DNA from: Oecophyllibacter saccharovorans
GTDB lineage: Bacteria > Pseudomonadota > Alphaproteobacteria > Acetobacterales > Acetobacteraceae
Length of the DNA: 64,000 bases
Reading direction: 5' to 3'
Assembly (NCBI RefSeq): GCF_006542375.1
Contig: NZ_CP038143.1
Span: 1,860,001-1,924,000 of the forward strand
The translations under genes and the position numbers were made by a program. Each line of letters begins with the position of its first letter. The stretch's first letter is position 1. Below the pieces are notes generated by a model, which did no database searches, had not been told where the DNA came from, and was given only the letters and a program-made list of their open reading frames with translations. Below are positions 36,003 through 43,987 of the stretch, piece by piece.

Positions 36003-36227
36003 ATGGCTGATATCACCCCTTCGGAAATCGAGCGTCTGCAGAAATCACTCCAGCGCCTGCTGGGCTCGAGCAAACTGACTGTCAACCCGCCCCTTCGGAA
36101 AGGAATGAGCGTGGAAATCGCCGTGGCGGGCGAAGTGATCGGAACCGTTTACCGTGACGAGGATGATGGAGAAGTTTCCTACGCCGTCAACATCACGGTC
36201 CTTGAAGAAGACCTGCCACCTGCCTGA
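36003..36227 (+). CDS. DUF3126 family protein
   Basis: 74 residues, GAGGAA upstream. The pattern I-x-x-L-x-x-x-L-x-x-x-(F/L)G, then a central VEIAVAGEVIGTVYRDEDDGEVSYAVNI and ILD/VLEEDL ending matches the short alphaproteobacterial DUF3126 family. No function is established. It precedes the MoeB/ThiF-like gene by about 35 bp and probably shares its transcript. Confidence 0.85.
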   Translation: MADITPSEIERLQKSLQRLLGSSKLTVNPPLRKGMSVEIAVAGEVIGTVYRDEDDGEVSYAVNITVLEEDLPPA

Positions 36228-36261
36228 AGGGCCAGATTCAACAGGAGCTCCGCTGACTTCC

Positions 36262-37077
36262 ATGTCCCTGCACGGGCAAGAAATGCACTTCTCCCCTGAA
36301 GAGCTGGAGCGTTATTCAAGGCAGATCCTCCTACCGCAGGTCGGCGCTGCCGGCCAGGCGCGGTTGCGGAATGCCTCCGTGCTGGTGATTGGGGCGGGCG
36401 GGCTGGGCGCGCCCCTGCTTGGGCAACTGGCCGGTGCGGGCATCGGCCAGCTGGGCATTGTGGACCCTGATGAGGTCTCGCTCAGCAACCTGCACCGCCA
36501 GACGCTCTATAGTATGGACGATATCGGACGCCCGAAAGTCGCTGCTGCTGAGCAACGCCTCAGACAGATCAATCCGCTTGTTTCCGTCTCAACCTGGCAG
36601 GCACAGGCCAGCCCTGAGCAACTGGCCTCTTTGCTGGGCCCTGACAGCCCCCATTCCTGGACGGTGGTATGTGACGGCACAGACAACGCGACGGCACGCG
36701 TGGCGATTTCAGATGCCTGTCTTCGCTACGGGGTGCCGCTGGTGTCAGGCTCGGCCCAGGGGTTTTCCGGTCAGCTGATCGTCTTTCACAATCAGGCAGG
36801 TTCTCCGTGTTACCGCTGCCTTTACCCTGAAGTGGAAGAAGCACCGGTAACCGGTTGCGCCGCCGCAGGTGTCATGGGGGCCGTTACCTCTGTCATGGCC
36901 GGCTTCATGGCCCTTGAAGTCTACCGGCTCATAATCGGAACAGGCGACAGGACCCACGAGCCTGCTACAGAGATCATGCTCTGGGAAGGGCTGGACGGTT
37001 CGATACGCCGTTTTCCCCTCACCAAGGTCCCGACCTGCCGTGGACCCCACGGCCGCGTGTTGAAGAGCGAGGCTTGA
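36262..37077 (+). CDS. moeB: MoeB/ThiF/HesA-family adenylyltransferase
   Basis: 271 residues. These E1-like enzymes adenylate the C-terminal Gly-Gly of MoaD or ThiS for sulfur transfer. ATP site GAGGLG at 44-49, DPDEVSLSNLHRQ at 68-80 with the Arg finger, and CDGTDNATAR at 137-145 are intact. One zinc pair (Cys183, Cys186) is clear; the second CxxC is reduced to PTCRGPHG. There is no C-terminal rhodanese domain. The start at 36262 is not well supported by a ribosome site; 36283 is possible. A DsrE-like gene follows 19 bp downstream. Confidence 0.85.
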   Translation: MSLHGQEMHFSPEELERYSRQILLPQVGAAGQARLRNASVLVIGAGGLGAPLLGQLAGAGIGQLGIVDPDEVSLSNLHRQTLYSMDDIGRPKVAAAEQRLRQINPLVSVSTWQAQASPEQLASLLGPDSPHSWTVVCDGTDNATARVAISDACLRYGVPLVSGSAQGFSGQLIVFHNQAGSPCYRCLYPEVEEAPVTGCAAAGVMGAVTSVMAGFMALEVYRLIIGTGDRTHEPATEIMLWEGLDGSIRRFPLTKVPTCRGPHGRVLKSEA

Positions 37078-39369: not shown

Positions 39370-40332
39370 TCAGGCGCGTTTGCGCAGGATCAGCGTACTC
39401 CATGGACCTTCCTGCAGCCGGTGTTCCAGAACGAGGCCCTGGCGGCGATGGGCAGCCAGCACCATTCGCACTTGAGTGTCCAGCAGGCCGGCCAGAATGG
39501 CTGTCCCGCCCGGGCGCAGTGCCTGTGCAAGCGAGCGGGCCATGCGGCAGAGGGGGCGGGCGAGGATATTGGCGAAGACGAGGTCATAAGGTGCATTGGC
39601 GCGCACGGCAGCCGTGTGCCAGCCATTGCCGAAACGACAGTCGAGCTGCGGGCCCAGATTGTTCAGGCGTGCATTGGCGGCAGCCACCCGAACCGACCAC
39701 GGCTCGATATCAACAGCCAGAACGGGTTTGCCGAGCAGCTTGGCTGCGGCCATGGCCAGGATGCCGGAGCCGCATCCCATATCGAGAATCTTCCGGGGCC
39801 GGCGATAAGCGATCTTTTCAAGCGCGCGCAGACAGCCACGTGTCGAGCCGTGCTCACCGGAACCGAAGGCAATGCCGGCGTCCAGCCTGATATTCAGGCG
39901 GTGATCCTGTGGTCGGGGCGGCAGATGCGTGCCGAGAATCGTGAAGCGCTGCCCGACCTGCTGGGGCGGAAACGCCTCCTGGGTACGGTGGAGCCACCCT
40001 TCGGCTTCCGTCGCAACCCGGGTCAGGGGCGCCTCCTCACCGGTCAGGAGGCGCGCAATATCGAGGGCAGCCTCAAGTTCACCGTCATTCTGCCCGCTTT
40101 CCCTGACTCCTTCCAGACGCCAGTATTTCTGCGCGTCATCCTCCTCGAAAATGCCGACAGTCTGGCAACAGGACAGCAGGGCCTGTTCAAAGAGAGGAGC
40201 ATGCGCTTCCTCCACCACCACGCTGACGGTTTCAAGCGGGCGTGCATAACGCGCCCCGATATGGCGTGGGGCGATTGTTGAAGGGCTGGCGCTTCGGGAA
40301 GCGACCGCACCTGCAGGAACAGAAGCTTTCAC
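39370..40332 (-). CDS. prmA: Ribosomal protein L11 methyltransferase
   Basis: 320 residues. SAM-dependent N-methylation of ribosomal protein L11. The N-terminal substrate-recognition domain is followed by RLDAGIAFGSGEHGSTRGCL (usual PGxAFGTGxHxTT), the SAM motif LDMGCGSGILAMAA, and VFANILARPL (usual ANIL-x-x-PL). It overlaps the pcrA stop by 4 bp. Confidence 0.94.
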   Translation of the reverse strand: MKASVPAGAVASRSASPSTIAPRHIGARYARPLETVSVVVEEAHAPLFEQALLSCCQTVGIFEEDDAQKYWRLEGVRESGQNDGELEAALDIARLLTGEEAPLTRVATEAEGWLHRTQEAFPPQQVGQRFTILGTHLPPRPQDHRLNIRLDAGIAFGSGEHGSTRGCLRALEKIAYRRPRKILDMGCGSGILAMAAAKLLGKPVLAVDIEPWSVRVAAANARLNNLGPQLDCRFGNGWHTAAVRANAPYDLVFANILARPLCRMARSLAQALRPGGTAILAGLLDTQVRMVLAAHRRQGLVLEHRLQEGPWSTLILRKRA

Positions 40333-42554
40333 GGAAGGATCTCCACGAAATCAGCCATGATGTGTTTCTGCCCTGCCTCTTCGAACTCGATGGTGAGACG
40401 ATTGCGCTCAATGTCTGTCACAACCCCCACGCCGAAACGGGGATGTCTTACCGTAGCGCCCAGTTCTGGAGCTGGGCCGGTGCGGGTGGGAGGACGGGTG
40501 GCCTTCAGTTCTGCCAGCATCTCCTGGCCAAGCCGGTTCCGGCGACCGAAGGCAGGGGCACCGAAAGAGCTTTGGGGCCGTTTCAGGCGCGTGCGATTGA
40601 CATGTTCATCAGGCAGCTCCTCCAGAAAGCGGCTCGGCAGGGATTCCTGCCATCCCGCATAAAGGCGCCGACTGTCGGCATGGAGAATAATGGCACGTTT
40701 GCGGGCACGGGTCAGGCCGACATAAGCGAGCCTTCTTTCCTCTTCCAGAGCGCGGTTTCCGCCTTCATCGAGCGAGCGCTGCGAGGGGAAAAGCCCTTCT
40801 TCCCAGCCGGGCAGGAAGACCGTATCGAACTCCAGGCCTTTGGCGGCGTGAAGGGTCATGAGGCTGATACGGTCCACTTGGCCCTGCAGCTGGTCGCTGT
40901 CCATCACCAGGGCGATGTGCTCCAGGAATTCAGGCAGGGTGGGAAACTCACCGATGGCCCGCAGCAGCTCGCGCAGGTTGTCCAGCCGGCCCGGTGCTTC
41001 GATCGAGGTGTCATCACGCCACATCTGCAGGTAACCGCTGTCTTCGAGCAGCTGTTCCACCGCCACGACATGCCCCTGGGTAGCCAGGGTTTCACGGGCA
41101 CGGTCAAAGGCGTCGAGCAGGCGCTGCAGTTCATCGGCTGCCTTGCCCTTGAGCTCCTTGCGCTCCAGCATCTGGCGGATGGTGGCCTGCAGGGGCAGCT
41201 GTCGCTCGCGGCCTACGGCACGCAGGCGCTCGAGCGATTTGGGTCCGATGCCGCGCTTTGGGGTATTGATGATCCGCTCAAAGGCGAGGTCGTCAGCGGG
41301 TTGGACAAGGGCGCGCATATAGGCCGTGCCATCGCGGATTTCCGCACGCTCATAAAAACGCAGGCCGCCGATGACCTGATAGGGGATCCCGAGGCGAATC
41401 AGGCTCTCCTCGAAAGGCCGGGTCTGGAAACCGGCCCGCATCAGGACTGCCATTTCCGCCAGCGACTGCCCCTCCTGGTGGAAGCGCTGCACCATTCCAC
41501 CTACCGTGCGGGCTTCATCATCGGAATCAGGTGTGTTGATGACAGTCACCGGCTCGCCTTCAAGCGCCTGCTGACCGGCATGCAGGGTTTTGCCCAGACG
41601 TTCTTCATTATGGGCGATAATGCCTGCAGCAGCCCCCAGGATACGTGGGGTAGAGCGGTAGTTGCGTTCCAGCCGGACAATATGCGCGCCCGGAAAATCC
41701 TTCTCAAAGCGCAGGATGTTCTCGATATCCGCTCCACGCCATGAATAGATGGACTGATCGTCATCGCCGACACAGGCGATATTGGCCGGGCGGTTGTCAG
41801 GGCGCTTGGCCAGGAGGCGCAGCCACAGATACTGAATGGTGTTGGTATCCTGGTACTCGTCCACCAGGATGTAGTGAAACCGTTTGTGATAATATTCCAG
41901 GATATCTGGATGCGTGCGGAAAATCGTCACCATGTGAAGCATGAGGTCGCCGAAGTCACAGGCATTCAGTTCACGCAGCCGGTTCTGGTAGGCGGTATAC
42001 ACCGCACGCGCATGGCCGTTGGCAACCTGTGCTTCATCATGGGCAGGCGTAATGGCGTCAGGCAGGAGGCCACGGTCTTTCCAGGTCTGGATCTGGTTGA
42101 GAATCTGTGCCGCCGGCCAGCGTTTGAGGTCAATCCGGAAAGGCGCCATGACCTGTTTGAGCAGCCGGATCTGGTCGTCCGTATCCAGAATGGTGAAGTC
42201 CCGCTCCAGCCCTGCCAGGTCAGCATGACGGCGCAGCATGCGGGCGCAAAGCGAGTGAAAGGTGCCCAACCACAGGGAATCGACAGGTTTGCCCAGAAGC
42301 GTGCCAATGCGTTCACGCATTTCGCGCGCCGCTTTGTTGGTGAAGGTGACCGCCAGGATCTGTTCAGGCCATGCATGGCCCTGCAGGAGAATATGTGCAA
42401 AGCGTGTTGTCAGGACGCGCGTCTTGCCTGTGCCGGCACCGGCCAGGATAAGAAGCGGTCCTTCCGTGGTTTCCACGGCCTGGCGTTGCTCATCATTGAG
42501 CGCGGAAAGATACGCGCCCTGGGGAGAGGGGGGAAAGAGATCATCAGCCACCAT
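40329..42554 (-). CDS. pcrA: ATP-dependent DNA helicase, UvrD/PcrA type
   Basis: 741 residues from ATG 42554. A 3'-5' SF1A helicase for repair and replication-fork upkeep. LNDEQRQAV (Q motif), Walker A GAGTGKT at 39-45, VDEYQDTN, GDDDQSIYSWRGA, TLHAAKGLEF and VGLTRARKRA are all present. The C-terminal 45 residues (GATVRHPRFGVGVV...) form the Tudor-like domain that in PcrA binds RNA polymerase. Only 25 bp separate its start from the divergent RadC-family gene. Confidence 0.96.
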   Translation of the reverse strand: MVADDLFPPSPQGAYLSALNDEQRQAVETTEGPLLILAGAGTGKTRVLTTRFAHILLQGHAWPEQILAVTFTNKAAREMRERIGTLLGKPVDSLWLGTFHSLCARMLRRHADLAGLERDFTILDTDDQIRLLKQVMAPFRIDLKRWPAAQILNQIQTWKDRGLLPDAITPAHDEAQVANGHARAVYTAYQNRLRELNACDFGDLMLHMVTIFRTHPDILEYYHKRFHYILVDEYQDTNTIQYLWLRLLAKRPDNRPANIACVGDDDQSIYSWRGADIENILRFEKDFPGAHIVRLERNYRSTPRILGAAAGIIAHNEERLGKTLHAGQQALEGEPVTVINTPDSDDEARTVGGMVQRFHQEGQSLAEMAVLMRAGFQTRPFEESLIRLGIPYQVIGGLRFYERAEIRDGTAYMRALVQPADDLAFERIINTPKRGIGPKSLERLRAVGRERQLPLQATIRQMLERKELKGKAADELQRLLDAFDRARETLATQGHVVAVEQLLEDSGYLQMWRDDTSIEAPGRLDNLRELLRAIGEFPTLPEFLEHIALVMDSDQLQGQVDRISLMTLHAAKGLEFDTVFLPGWEEGLFPSQRSLDEGGNRALEEERRLAYVGLTRARKRAIILHADSRRLYAGWQESLPSRFLEELPDEHVNRTRLKRPQSSFGAPAFGRRNRLGQEMLAELKATRPPTRTGPAPELGATVRHPRFGVGVVTDIERNRLTIEFEEAGQKHIMADFVEILP

Positions 42555-42579
42555 ATGAACATACTGCCAGGCCACGTGG

Positions 42580-43299
42580 ATGGCCAAGCCTAAACCTGCT
42601 TCTGCTGCAGGCGCGCCTGGCAGGGCTGAAATATCCGTCACTTCAGGACACCGCAGCCGCATGCGCAGGCGGGTGCTGGAGCACGGGGCCGCGTCTCTGG
42701 CGGATTATGAATTGCTGGAAATGCTGCTGTTCTGCGGGATTCCGCGCCGGGACACCAAACCGGTGGCCAAAAAGCTTCTGCAGAAATTCGGCTCTCTTGC
42801 CGGCGTGTTTCAGGCCTCCCGCAGAGAGCTTATGGAGAGCGGGCTTAATCAGCGCTCAGCAGAGCTGCTGGAGTTCCCGCGACTGGGCGCAAAATCTCTG
42901 GCGGCCAGCACCGGACCGGTGATGCCGGTCCTGGGAGATTGGCAGGCATTGGTTGCTTATCTGGAGCAGCATTGTCAGCCGGGTATCTTCTGCAGGCTGC
43001 TTTATCTCGACAACCGCAACCGCTTGCTGGGTGACAGAATACTGAGCGAAACACCTCAACCCCTGGTCGGTCTGCTCAGGCAAGCGGCTGGGCAGGGCCT
43101 GGTTCTGCAGGCAACCGCCCTGATCGTTGTCCTGTGCGCACCACGCGGCACGGCTGTGGGACTGGCGCAAGGCGTGCGTGGACTGACCCTGGCGCTTAAA
43201 CCGCTCTCTCTTATCATTCACGATGCCGTTCTGGTGGACTATGTCCACAAAGACAGGCTGGCCTGGATGATGAGTTTCTCTCAGGAAAACCTTTTATAA
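42580..43299 (+). CDS. RadC-family protein with degenerate JAMM domain (paralogue 1)
   Basis: 239 residues. The N-terminal UPF0758 part is well kept: GHRSRMRRR at 23-31, LADYELLEMLLFCGIPRRDTKPVAKKLL at 40-67, and a helix-hairpin-helix-like region. The JPN/JAMM half keeps the fold pattern (FCRLLYLDNRNRLLGD, LTLALKPLSLIIHDAVLV) but not the metal site: the Glu is Arg153 and the HxHPSG loop reads CAPRGTA (186-192). It should lack metalloprotease activity. It stands 31 bp before an intact-JAMM paralogue. Confidence 0.85.
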   Translation: MAKPKPASAAGAPGRAEISVTSGHRSRMRRRVLEHGAASLADYELLEMLLFCGIPRRDTKPVAKKLLQKFGSLAGVFQASRRELMESGLNQRSAELLEFPRLGAKSLAASTGPVMPVLGDWQALVAYLEQHCQPGIFCRLLYLDNRNRLLGDRILSETPQPLVGLLRQAAGQGLVLQATALIVVLCAPRGTAVGLAQGVRGLTLALKPLSLIIHDAVLVDYVHKDRLAWMMSFSQENLL

Positions 43300-43330
43300 A
43301 ACTATAAGGATCTCCGAGAGCTTCCAACCG

Positions 43331-43987
43331 ATGACCGACATGCCTCAATCCTTGCCGCTTCCCGATCCGCCAGAAACCTCCCTGCTGTTCAGGCGGCTGG
43401 CTGAACTGCTGAAAGGGGGAAGCGACGCAGCCGAACTGACCCAATACCTGACAGAAACTTTCCCCGATCTCGGCTCTCTTCTCAGCGCCTCGCCGGAAAG
43501 CTGGGCTCAGATGCCCCTGGCGGGAAAACAGTTTCCTGTCATGCTGCAGGTGATACGGGAGTGCGCTCTGCGCTATAATCGCGCCTGCCTGGCAGCAGGC
43601 AACCTTCTGGCAGATGAAAGCGGCTTGCTTGACTACCTGACCGCACGCCTGGGGTGGGAGCAGATCGAGAATTTCCACCTGCTGTTCCTGGACAGAAAAA
43701 ACCGTCTGATTGCTGACGAAATTCAGGGGTCCGGAACCGTCAATCACGCGCCCGTTTATCCACGTGAAGTCGCCCGGAAATGTCTGCTTCTGAACGCCAA
43801 CGGGCTGATCATGGCCCATAACCATCCCTCGGGGGACGCTACACCTTCACCGCAGGACGTGGTGATGACCCAGCAGGTAGAGGCGGCACTCAAAGTCATC
43901 GGGGTCAGGCTGATCAACCACTATATCATCGGGCGAGGAAGCCGGAGCAGCTTCCGCAATCTGGGGCTGCTGGAACCCGCAGGCTGA
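43331..43987 (+). CDS. radC: RadC-family JAMM protein (paralogue 2)
   Basis: 218 residues. The JAMM+ site is complete: Glu130 (LIADEIQ), His163 and His165 with Ser167 in HNHPSGD, and Asp176. TVNHAPVYPREV and RLINHYIIG are standard RadC. The N-terminal part is shortened and has lost the DYELLELLLF/IPR-DTKPLAK segment found in paralogue 1. RadC functions remain unclear despite the name. The pair is probably one transcript and ends at a hairpin with TTTT. Confidence 0.88.
   Translation: MTDMPQSLPLPDPPETSLLFRRLAELLKGGSDAAELTQYLTETFPDLGSLLSASPESWAQMPLAGKQFPVMLQVIRECALRYNRACLAAGNLLADESGLLDYLTARLGWEQIENFHLLFLDRKNRLIADEIQGSGTVNHAPVYPREVARKCLLLNANGLIMAHNHPSGDATPSPQDVVMTQQVEAALKVIGVRLINHYIIGRGSRSSFRNLGLLEPAG

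Follow-up and report, generated by a model that had tools for sequence, protein, structure and literature searches.

Two RadC paralogues with complementary domain loss in acetic acid bacteria: a candidate division of RadC between two genes

The window analysed here is a stretch of 64,000 nucleotides of Oecophyllibacter saccharovorans DNA (contig NZ_CP038143.1). It contains two tandem paralogues of RadC, referred to below as A and B, whose positions and domains are given in Table 1. Both are intact open reading frames, coding for 239 and 218 amino acids, respectively, and 31 bp separate the stop codon of A from the start codon of B. An open reading frame on the opposite strand is placed head to head with A; from its sequence we take it to be a uvrD/pcrA-type helicase gene, and its true start is probably near 42554. 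A further open reading frame (36154–37077) is located about 5.5 kb from the A–B pair and presumably codes for a ThiF/MoeB-like adenylating enzyme, an assignment made by eye from its motifs. E1-like enzymes are linked to JAMM proteins in other systems.

Table 1. Coordinates of the features of the A–B locus in the window.
Feature	Coordinates	Strand	Basis
Gene A, RadC paralogue; intact UPF0758_N module, JAMM domain without metal ligands	42580..43299	+	ORF, Pfam, AF2 model
A residues 23–64, GHRxRMR...LADYELLE...RRDTKPxAK module, retained by A and decayed in B	42646..42771	+	Column table, 49 A versus 41 B rows
A residues 117–239, JAMM-fold domain; two His, Ser and Asp of the metal site all missing	42928..43296	+	Column table, AF2 model, structure alignment
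Spacer between A and B, 31 bp	43300..43330	+	
Gene B, RadC paralogue; JAMM domain intact, N-terminal module decayed	43331..43987	+	ORF, Pfam, column table, AF2 model
B residues 97–212, JAMM domain with H163, H165, S173, D176 and invariant E113	43619..43966	+	Pfam, column table, structure alignment to 2qlc
Presumed helicase gene, uvrD/pcrA-type, head to head with A	40329..42662	−	ORF as listed, overlapping A

Domain assignments were made using Pfam. A matches UPF0758_N with 36.6 bits (cut-off 27.1) and PF04002 with 11.9 bits, below the cut-off of 22.1, whereas B matches PF04002 with 128.4 bits and gave no UPF0758_N match at E ≤ 1. The two proteins share 37% identity across 62 residues (BLASTP). 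Of the whole-family models, TIGR00608 is passed by B (145.4 bits against a cut-off of 133.85), with A scoring 55.9 bits, and NF000642, which calls for a whole-protein score above 180 bits, is reached by neither (58.9 bits for A and 153.3 bits for B). Searches of the window genome (1.94 Mb, 100% complete) matched B alone with PF04002 and A alone with PF20582, and recovered only A itself when A was the query; no further RadC was found with these three queries. The original prediction held that the two genes had decayed in complementary ways, A keeping the N-terminal domain and B the JAMM metal site. Both Pfam and the residue comparison below bear this out, and the motifs that it quoted are all present: GHRSRMRRR, DYELLE and IPRRDTKPVAK in A, where CAPRG stands in place of the canonical HNHPSG and the metal-site pattern HxHPSG...S..D is lost, and H163, H165 and D176 in B.

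Residue conservation was tabulated by alignment column for 49 A, 41 B and 28 canonical RadC rows (21 from Acetobacteraceae and seven from other Alphaproteobacteria); the rows L162, L163 and L178, which lack the N-terminal module (N-less), were removed beforehand. Twelve residues of the N-terminal module (G1, H2, R3, R5, R7, D20, E22, E25, D36, K38, P39 and A41) are conserved in 94–100% of the A rows, and the same canonical residues (GHRxRxR...D.E..E...D.KP.A) are found in only 5–66% of the B rows. The metal-site residues H163, H165, S173 and D176 are invariant (100%) in both the B and the canonical rows; among the A rows they occur in 14, 12, 2 and 24%, respectively. The glutamate that had been proposed to distinguish the copies, Glu130 of B (Arg153 in A), was probably a wrong choice: Glu fills its column in 80% of the A and 83% of the B rows, so that this column does not discriminate A from B. 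Glu113 of B is the better candidate for the catalytic Glu, as presumed from MPN topology; its column is Glu in every canonical and B row and in 8% of A rows. The B-type proteins of genomes G059 and G101 look intermediate, with N-domain scores of 28.5 bits (over the cut-off) and 25.2 bits (under it), respectively, yet with the GHR and DYELLE motifs gone in both. L096 and L132 do not have the strict JAMM pattern and score best as canonical.

The distribution of the pair was surveyed by crossing PF04002 and PF20582 matches in 150 Acetobacteraceae genomes from 102 genera, with individual reading of ambiguous cases and of many pairs. Among the matches listed, A and B are found together in 44 of the 150 genomes, and since the pattern recurs to this extent the domain split in the window is real and not a product of chance. 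A full-length RadC was not found in 39 of these 44 carriers among the matches listed and was present in the other five (G012, G017, G043, G079 and G101). By the same count, 91 genomes have only full-length RadC in one to three copies, seven have odd or fragmentary sets (G016, G067, G074, G077, G089, G092 and G096, set aside after reading) and eight have no RadC, some of these being incomplete (G138 and G144, 66–72%). No RadC at all was found in G029, G115, G076 and G143, which belong to two genera. Among the matches listed, no genome of the survey has A without B. N-less RadC without A occurs in G089 and G096, beside a canonical RadC, and extra N-less copies accompany an A–B pair in G131, G107 and G059, the third RadC of G059 being of this kind. 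The proteins concerned include L163 (G096), L178 (G131), L162 (G089) and L283 (G059).

Several assignments in the survey rest on reading of the sequence. The A proteins of G072 and G125 fall below the domain threshold and were accepted from their sequence, that of G009 is interrupted by two contig ends, and the B proteins of G059 and G101, with their weak N-domain scores, were reassigned from canonical to B. In G125 (L030) B contains one in-frame TGA and in G017 (L149) it is split over two frames, with A intact in both genomes; a true change and an assembly error are both possible for these broken copies. A sample of named genomes, chosen for carrying A and partly overlapping with the survey, provided at least 16 loci with A (Saccharibacter, Gluconobacter, Acidomonas, Neokomagataea, three Bombella, two Asaia, Tanticharoenia, Lichenicoccus and five Acetobacter). 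All 16 have exactly one strong (B) and one weak (A) PF04002 match among the matches listed. RadC is widespread in general, PF04002 being matched in eight of 14 control genomes.

The original prediction named a full-length RadC elsewhere in the genome as evidence against a divided RadC. None was found in the window genome, but the five carriers listed above do have one among the matches listed, which weakens the idea of two halves of one RadC job for those five; there the pair may serve another role. That A and B replace canonical RadC must be qualified in the same way, as five of 44 carriers retain the canonical copy.

Gene order is less uniform than gene content. In 12 of the 16 named genomes A and B are within 5 kb of each other among the matches listed, the two genes of Lichenicoccus are separated by about 5 kb, and different contigs carry them in Acetobacter sacchari, A. 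estunensis and Acetobacter sp. AN02. In G121, G013 and G040 they lie at least 78 kb apart on one contig, and in G043 and G079 they are divergent. An opposite-strand HAD hydrolase gene, absent from the A/B interval in the window, separates them in several genera [L156:4265-5116 (−) and equivalents]; it was confirmed by Pfam in one genome, that of Acidomonas. Co-transcription need not hold where this gene splits the pair, and an operon as the general arrangement is ruled out by the HAD gene, the divergent pairs and the dispersal. Thus, the co-occurrence that had been suggested stands, in 44 of 150 genomes among the matches listed, whereas constant adjacency does not, and the 31 bp spacing holds for the window and not as a general rule. 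The neighbourhood of A with uvrD is steadier. Of 21 pair-bearing genomes compared, all without a full-length RadC, 20 have A (or, in G066, the fusion described below) head to head with uvrD at 400 bp or less; these include G013, G040 and G121, where B is elsewhere. In G059, the best UvrD match is an incomplete one on a different contig. Among the other pair carriers, uvrD is likewise on a different contig in G017 and far from A in G101.

In a quick RadC tree, with SH-aLRT as the only support measure, A forms one clade (SH-aLRT 100), as does B with the exception of L162 (SH-aLRT 96), and both fall among or beside the RadC proteins of Acetobacteraceae. The N-less copy L163 from G096 is inside the B clade on a long branch. 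The placement of the long rows, namely both halves of the G066 fusion, L145, L146, L163 and L178, is unsure. A and B are not sisters in the free quick tree, but constraining A+B to one clade improved the fit by 57 log units (AU p = 0.976). A common origin of A and B is favoured by this sequence comparison, with a single duplication still unproven. In a UvrD tree, which served alone as the species tree, G017, G059 and G101 diverge immediately outside the group that has only the pair; the G059 row is long and partial, and a long branch leads to G029 and G115. Two of these three outside-branching genomes have the canonical copy, which fits an order of events in which the pair arose beside canonical RadC and the latter was lost afterwards, although canonical RadC may instead have been regained.

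Selection was estimated in Asaia, where A was found in nine of nine species. The median ω for A is 0.075 in the N-half (19 of 36 pairs usable) and 0.065 in the metal-less half (26 of 36), and for B it is 0.157 in the N-half (15 of 28) and 0.056 in the JAMM half (22 of 28); for most of the species pairs dS is close to saturation. In Asaia the half of A that lacks the metal site is under purifying selection and, by the values of 0.065 and 0.075, is constrained as tightly as the N-half, as would be expected for an interaction surface. AF2 models of both proteins were obtained with a mean pLDDT of 90.9 and a pTM of 0.63 for A and a mean pLDDT of 91.1 and a pTM of 0.84 for B. Alignment to 2qlc, a structure of the RadC JAMM domain, gave Z-scores of 16.2 for the C-terminal domain of A and 17.6 for the JAMM domain of B. 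The N-terminal helices of A align with the HhH domains of Hef, XPF and FANCM–FAAP24 with middling Z-scores of 6.6 to 7.3. Structural matches to BRCC36 are modest for B (Z-score of 8.8) and lower for A (Z-score of 6.0).

Three further observations bear on a possible joint role of the two proteins. In G066, A and B are joined in one frame of 626 amino acids [L142:2818-4695 (−)], in which about 200 residues without an assigned domain separate an A-like half (136.0 bits with the A profile versus 79.2 with the canonical profile) from a B-like half (164.9 bits with the B profile versus 133.3). The N-module of this fusion scores 19.7 bits, below the Pfam cut-off of 27.1, and no break of the reading frame is indicated by its base composition, which is not proof of its integrity. 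The fusion was found in one genome, its genus being sampled through one species, and none of 24 other genomes examined carries a fusion of this type. A second one-frame fusion, of 523 amino acids with two JAMM stretches, is present in G107 [L172:1316-2884 (+)], which also holds a separate A–B pair. The JAMM half that comes first is metal-less and has no GHR motif; the second JAMM half carries HNHPSGDPTPSQDD. Its first half scores 117.0 bits with the A profile versus 100.9 with the canonical profile, and its second half barely favours B (263.2 versus 259.9 bits).

The second observation is of loss. G029 and G115, which represent one genus and are 98–99% complete, have neither A nor B, and by UvrD they nest, on a long branch, within the pair-bearing lineages; A and B were evidently lost together in this genus. 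The third is of rates. Pairwise distances of A and B correlate beyond what they share with UvrD (partial r = 0.66, permutation p = 0.0004, n = 18, with no unrelated-protein control pair), the corresponding partial r values being 0.37 for A with UvrD given B and 0.32 for B with UvrD given A. The calculation used 18 of the 21 pair-only genomes (G059, G060 and G066 were excluded), with three of the B rows partial, and rate habits common to the paralogues may be the source of the correlation. The two one-frame fusions, the shared loss and the correlated rates together make an A–B heterodimer more likely, the contact being predicted from these sequence patterns.

The reading that we prefer, with a probability of about 0.6, is that in acetic acid bacteria A and B each contribute one part of a single function derived from RadC. 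In this reading A and B would stem from one duplication, after which A kept the N-terminal module and B the JAMM metal site, and contact between their JAMM folds would make them an unequal dimer. A would support the active site of B and would direct the dimer, probably to repair or replication structures on DNA. B is a putative zinc JAMM hydrolase, its substrate probably being a peptide or isopeptide bond. Besides the fusions, the shared loss and the correlated rates, the reading draws on the complementary domain loss, the co-occurrence of the pair, its retention where the genes are far apart, the tree and the selection on A in Asaia. Against it count the full-length RadC of five pair carriers, the HAD gene between A and B, the broken B copies beside an intact A in G125 and G017 and the N-less copies without A in G089 and G096. 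A more specific form, for which we consider the odds to be even, is a bacterial JAMM pseudo-enzyme/enzyme heterodimer derived from RadC, whose uvrD-linked, metal-less subunit would target and activate a zinc JAMM subunit, in convergence with BRCC36–KIAA0157 and XPF–ERCC1.

That A and B are both functional but separate, A being a factor without metal that binds DNA or protein and is linked to UvrD, and B a stand-alone JAMM hydrolase, with shared descent alone behind their co-occurrence, appears rather doubtful to us. Such independence would be in keeping with the opposite-strand HAD gene that splits the pair in several genera, with the position of A by uvrD while B is elsewhere (G013, G040 and G121), with the canonical RadC kept besides in five pair genomes among the matches listed and with the B-like N-less copies without A in G089 and G096. 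It is harder to reconcile with the absence of A without B among the matches listed, where B without A is confined to two odd cases, and with the shared loss in G029 and G115, the one-frame fusions in G066 and G107 and the A–B rate correlation beyond UvrD. An arrangement in which A binds B, or the substrate of B, as an inhibitor or decoy and not as a supporting subunit seems improbable; although the modelled A does keep the JAMM fold without metal ligands, the module that it retains is the one lost in B, pointing to shared work.

We give scarcely any credence to A being a decaying pseudogene that is still open in some genomes. The metal site is indeed gone from A, but there is no stop within the A-type matches listed, the median ω of the metal-less half in Asaia is low (0.065, with dS near saturation in most pairs) and A is one clade across many genera. 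The narrower case of a local pseudogene is ruled out by the single clade, the low ω and the open frame in the window; a lineage-specific frameshifted pseudogene, which the original prediction had raised against itself, is not what was found.

If A and B do act as two parts of one function, the pair offers a natural dissection of RadC in which each half can be removed singly, and the two unknown activities of RadC would have been separated into two genes. The selected metal-less half indicates which RadC surfaces still matter, and the pair would be a bacterial parallel to the pseudo-enzyme pairs of eukaryotes. RadC itself, its two domains and its JAMM sites are already known; what seems to be new is the division of its two halves between two genes. 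A literature search of open-licence titles and abstract openings, which is weak evidence of absence, returned no description of a two-gene RadC split. Whether RadC acts in DNA repair at all is contested in the literature, and its role is unsettled.

Several known systems resemble the pair in part, those nearest to the proposed mechanism being BRCC36–KIAA0157 and XPF–ERCC1. In the RadC-like DinG proteins a RadC-type JAMM domain is joined to a DNA helicase (PMC11981726); there the domain is fused to DinG, whereas A is simply a chromosomal neighbour of uvrD. In BRCC36–KIAA0157 and Rpn11–Rpn8 a metal-bearing and a metal-less JAMM fold are partners, and A and B likewise occur together. For BRCC36, the pseudo-enzyme partner is described as essential for activity (PMC4579573), with contacts that support the catalytic-Glu loop. 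Both complexes differ from the present pair in being eukaryotic and ubiquitin-linked, with other substrates, and the A–B contact is a predicted one. XPF–ERCC1 and FANCM–FAAP24 are paralogue pairs in which one subunit is catalytic and the other is mainly DNA-binding and structural. It is with their HhH domains that the N-terminal helices of A align at middling Z-scores, but these proteins are nucleases or helicase relatives and not JAMM hydrolases, and their catalytic domains are unrelated. Canonical RadC/UPF0758 (TIGR00608 and NF000642) shares with A and B its two domains and their order; it holds both functional halves in one chain, whereas here they are spread over two.
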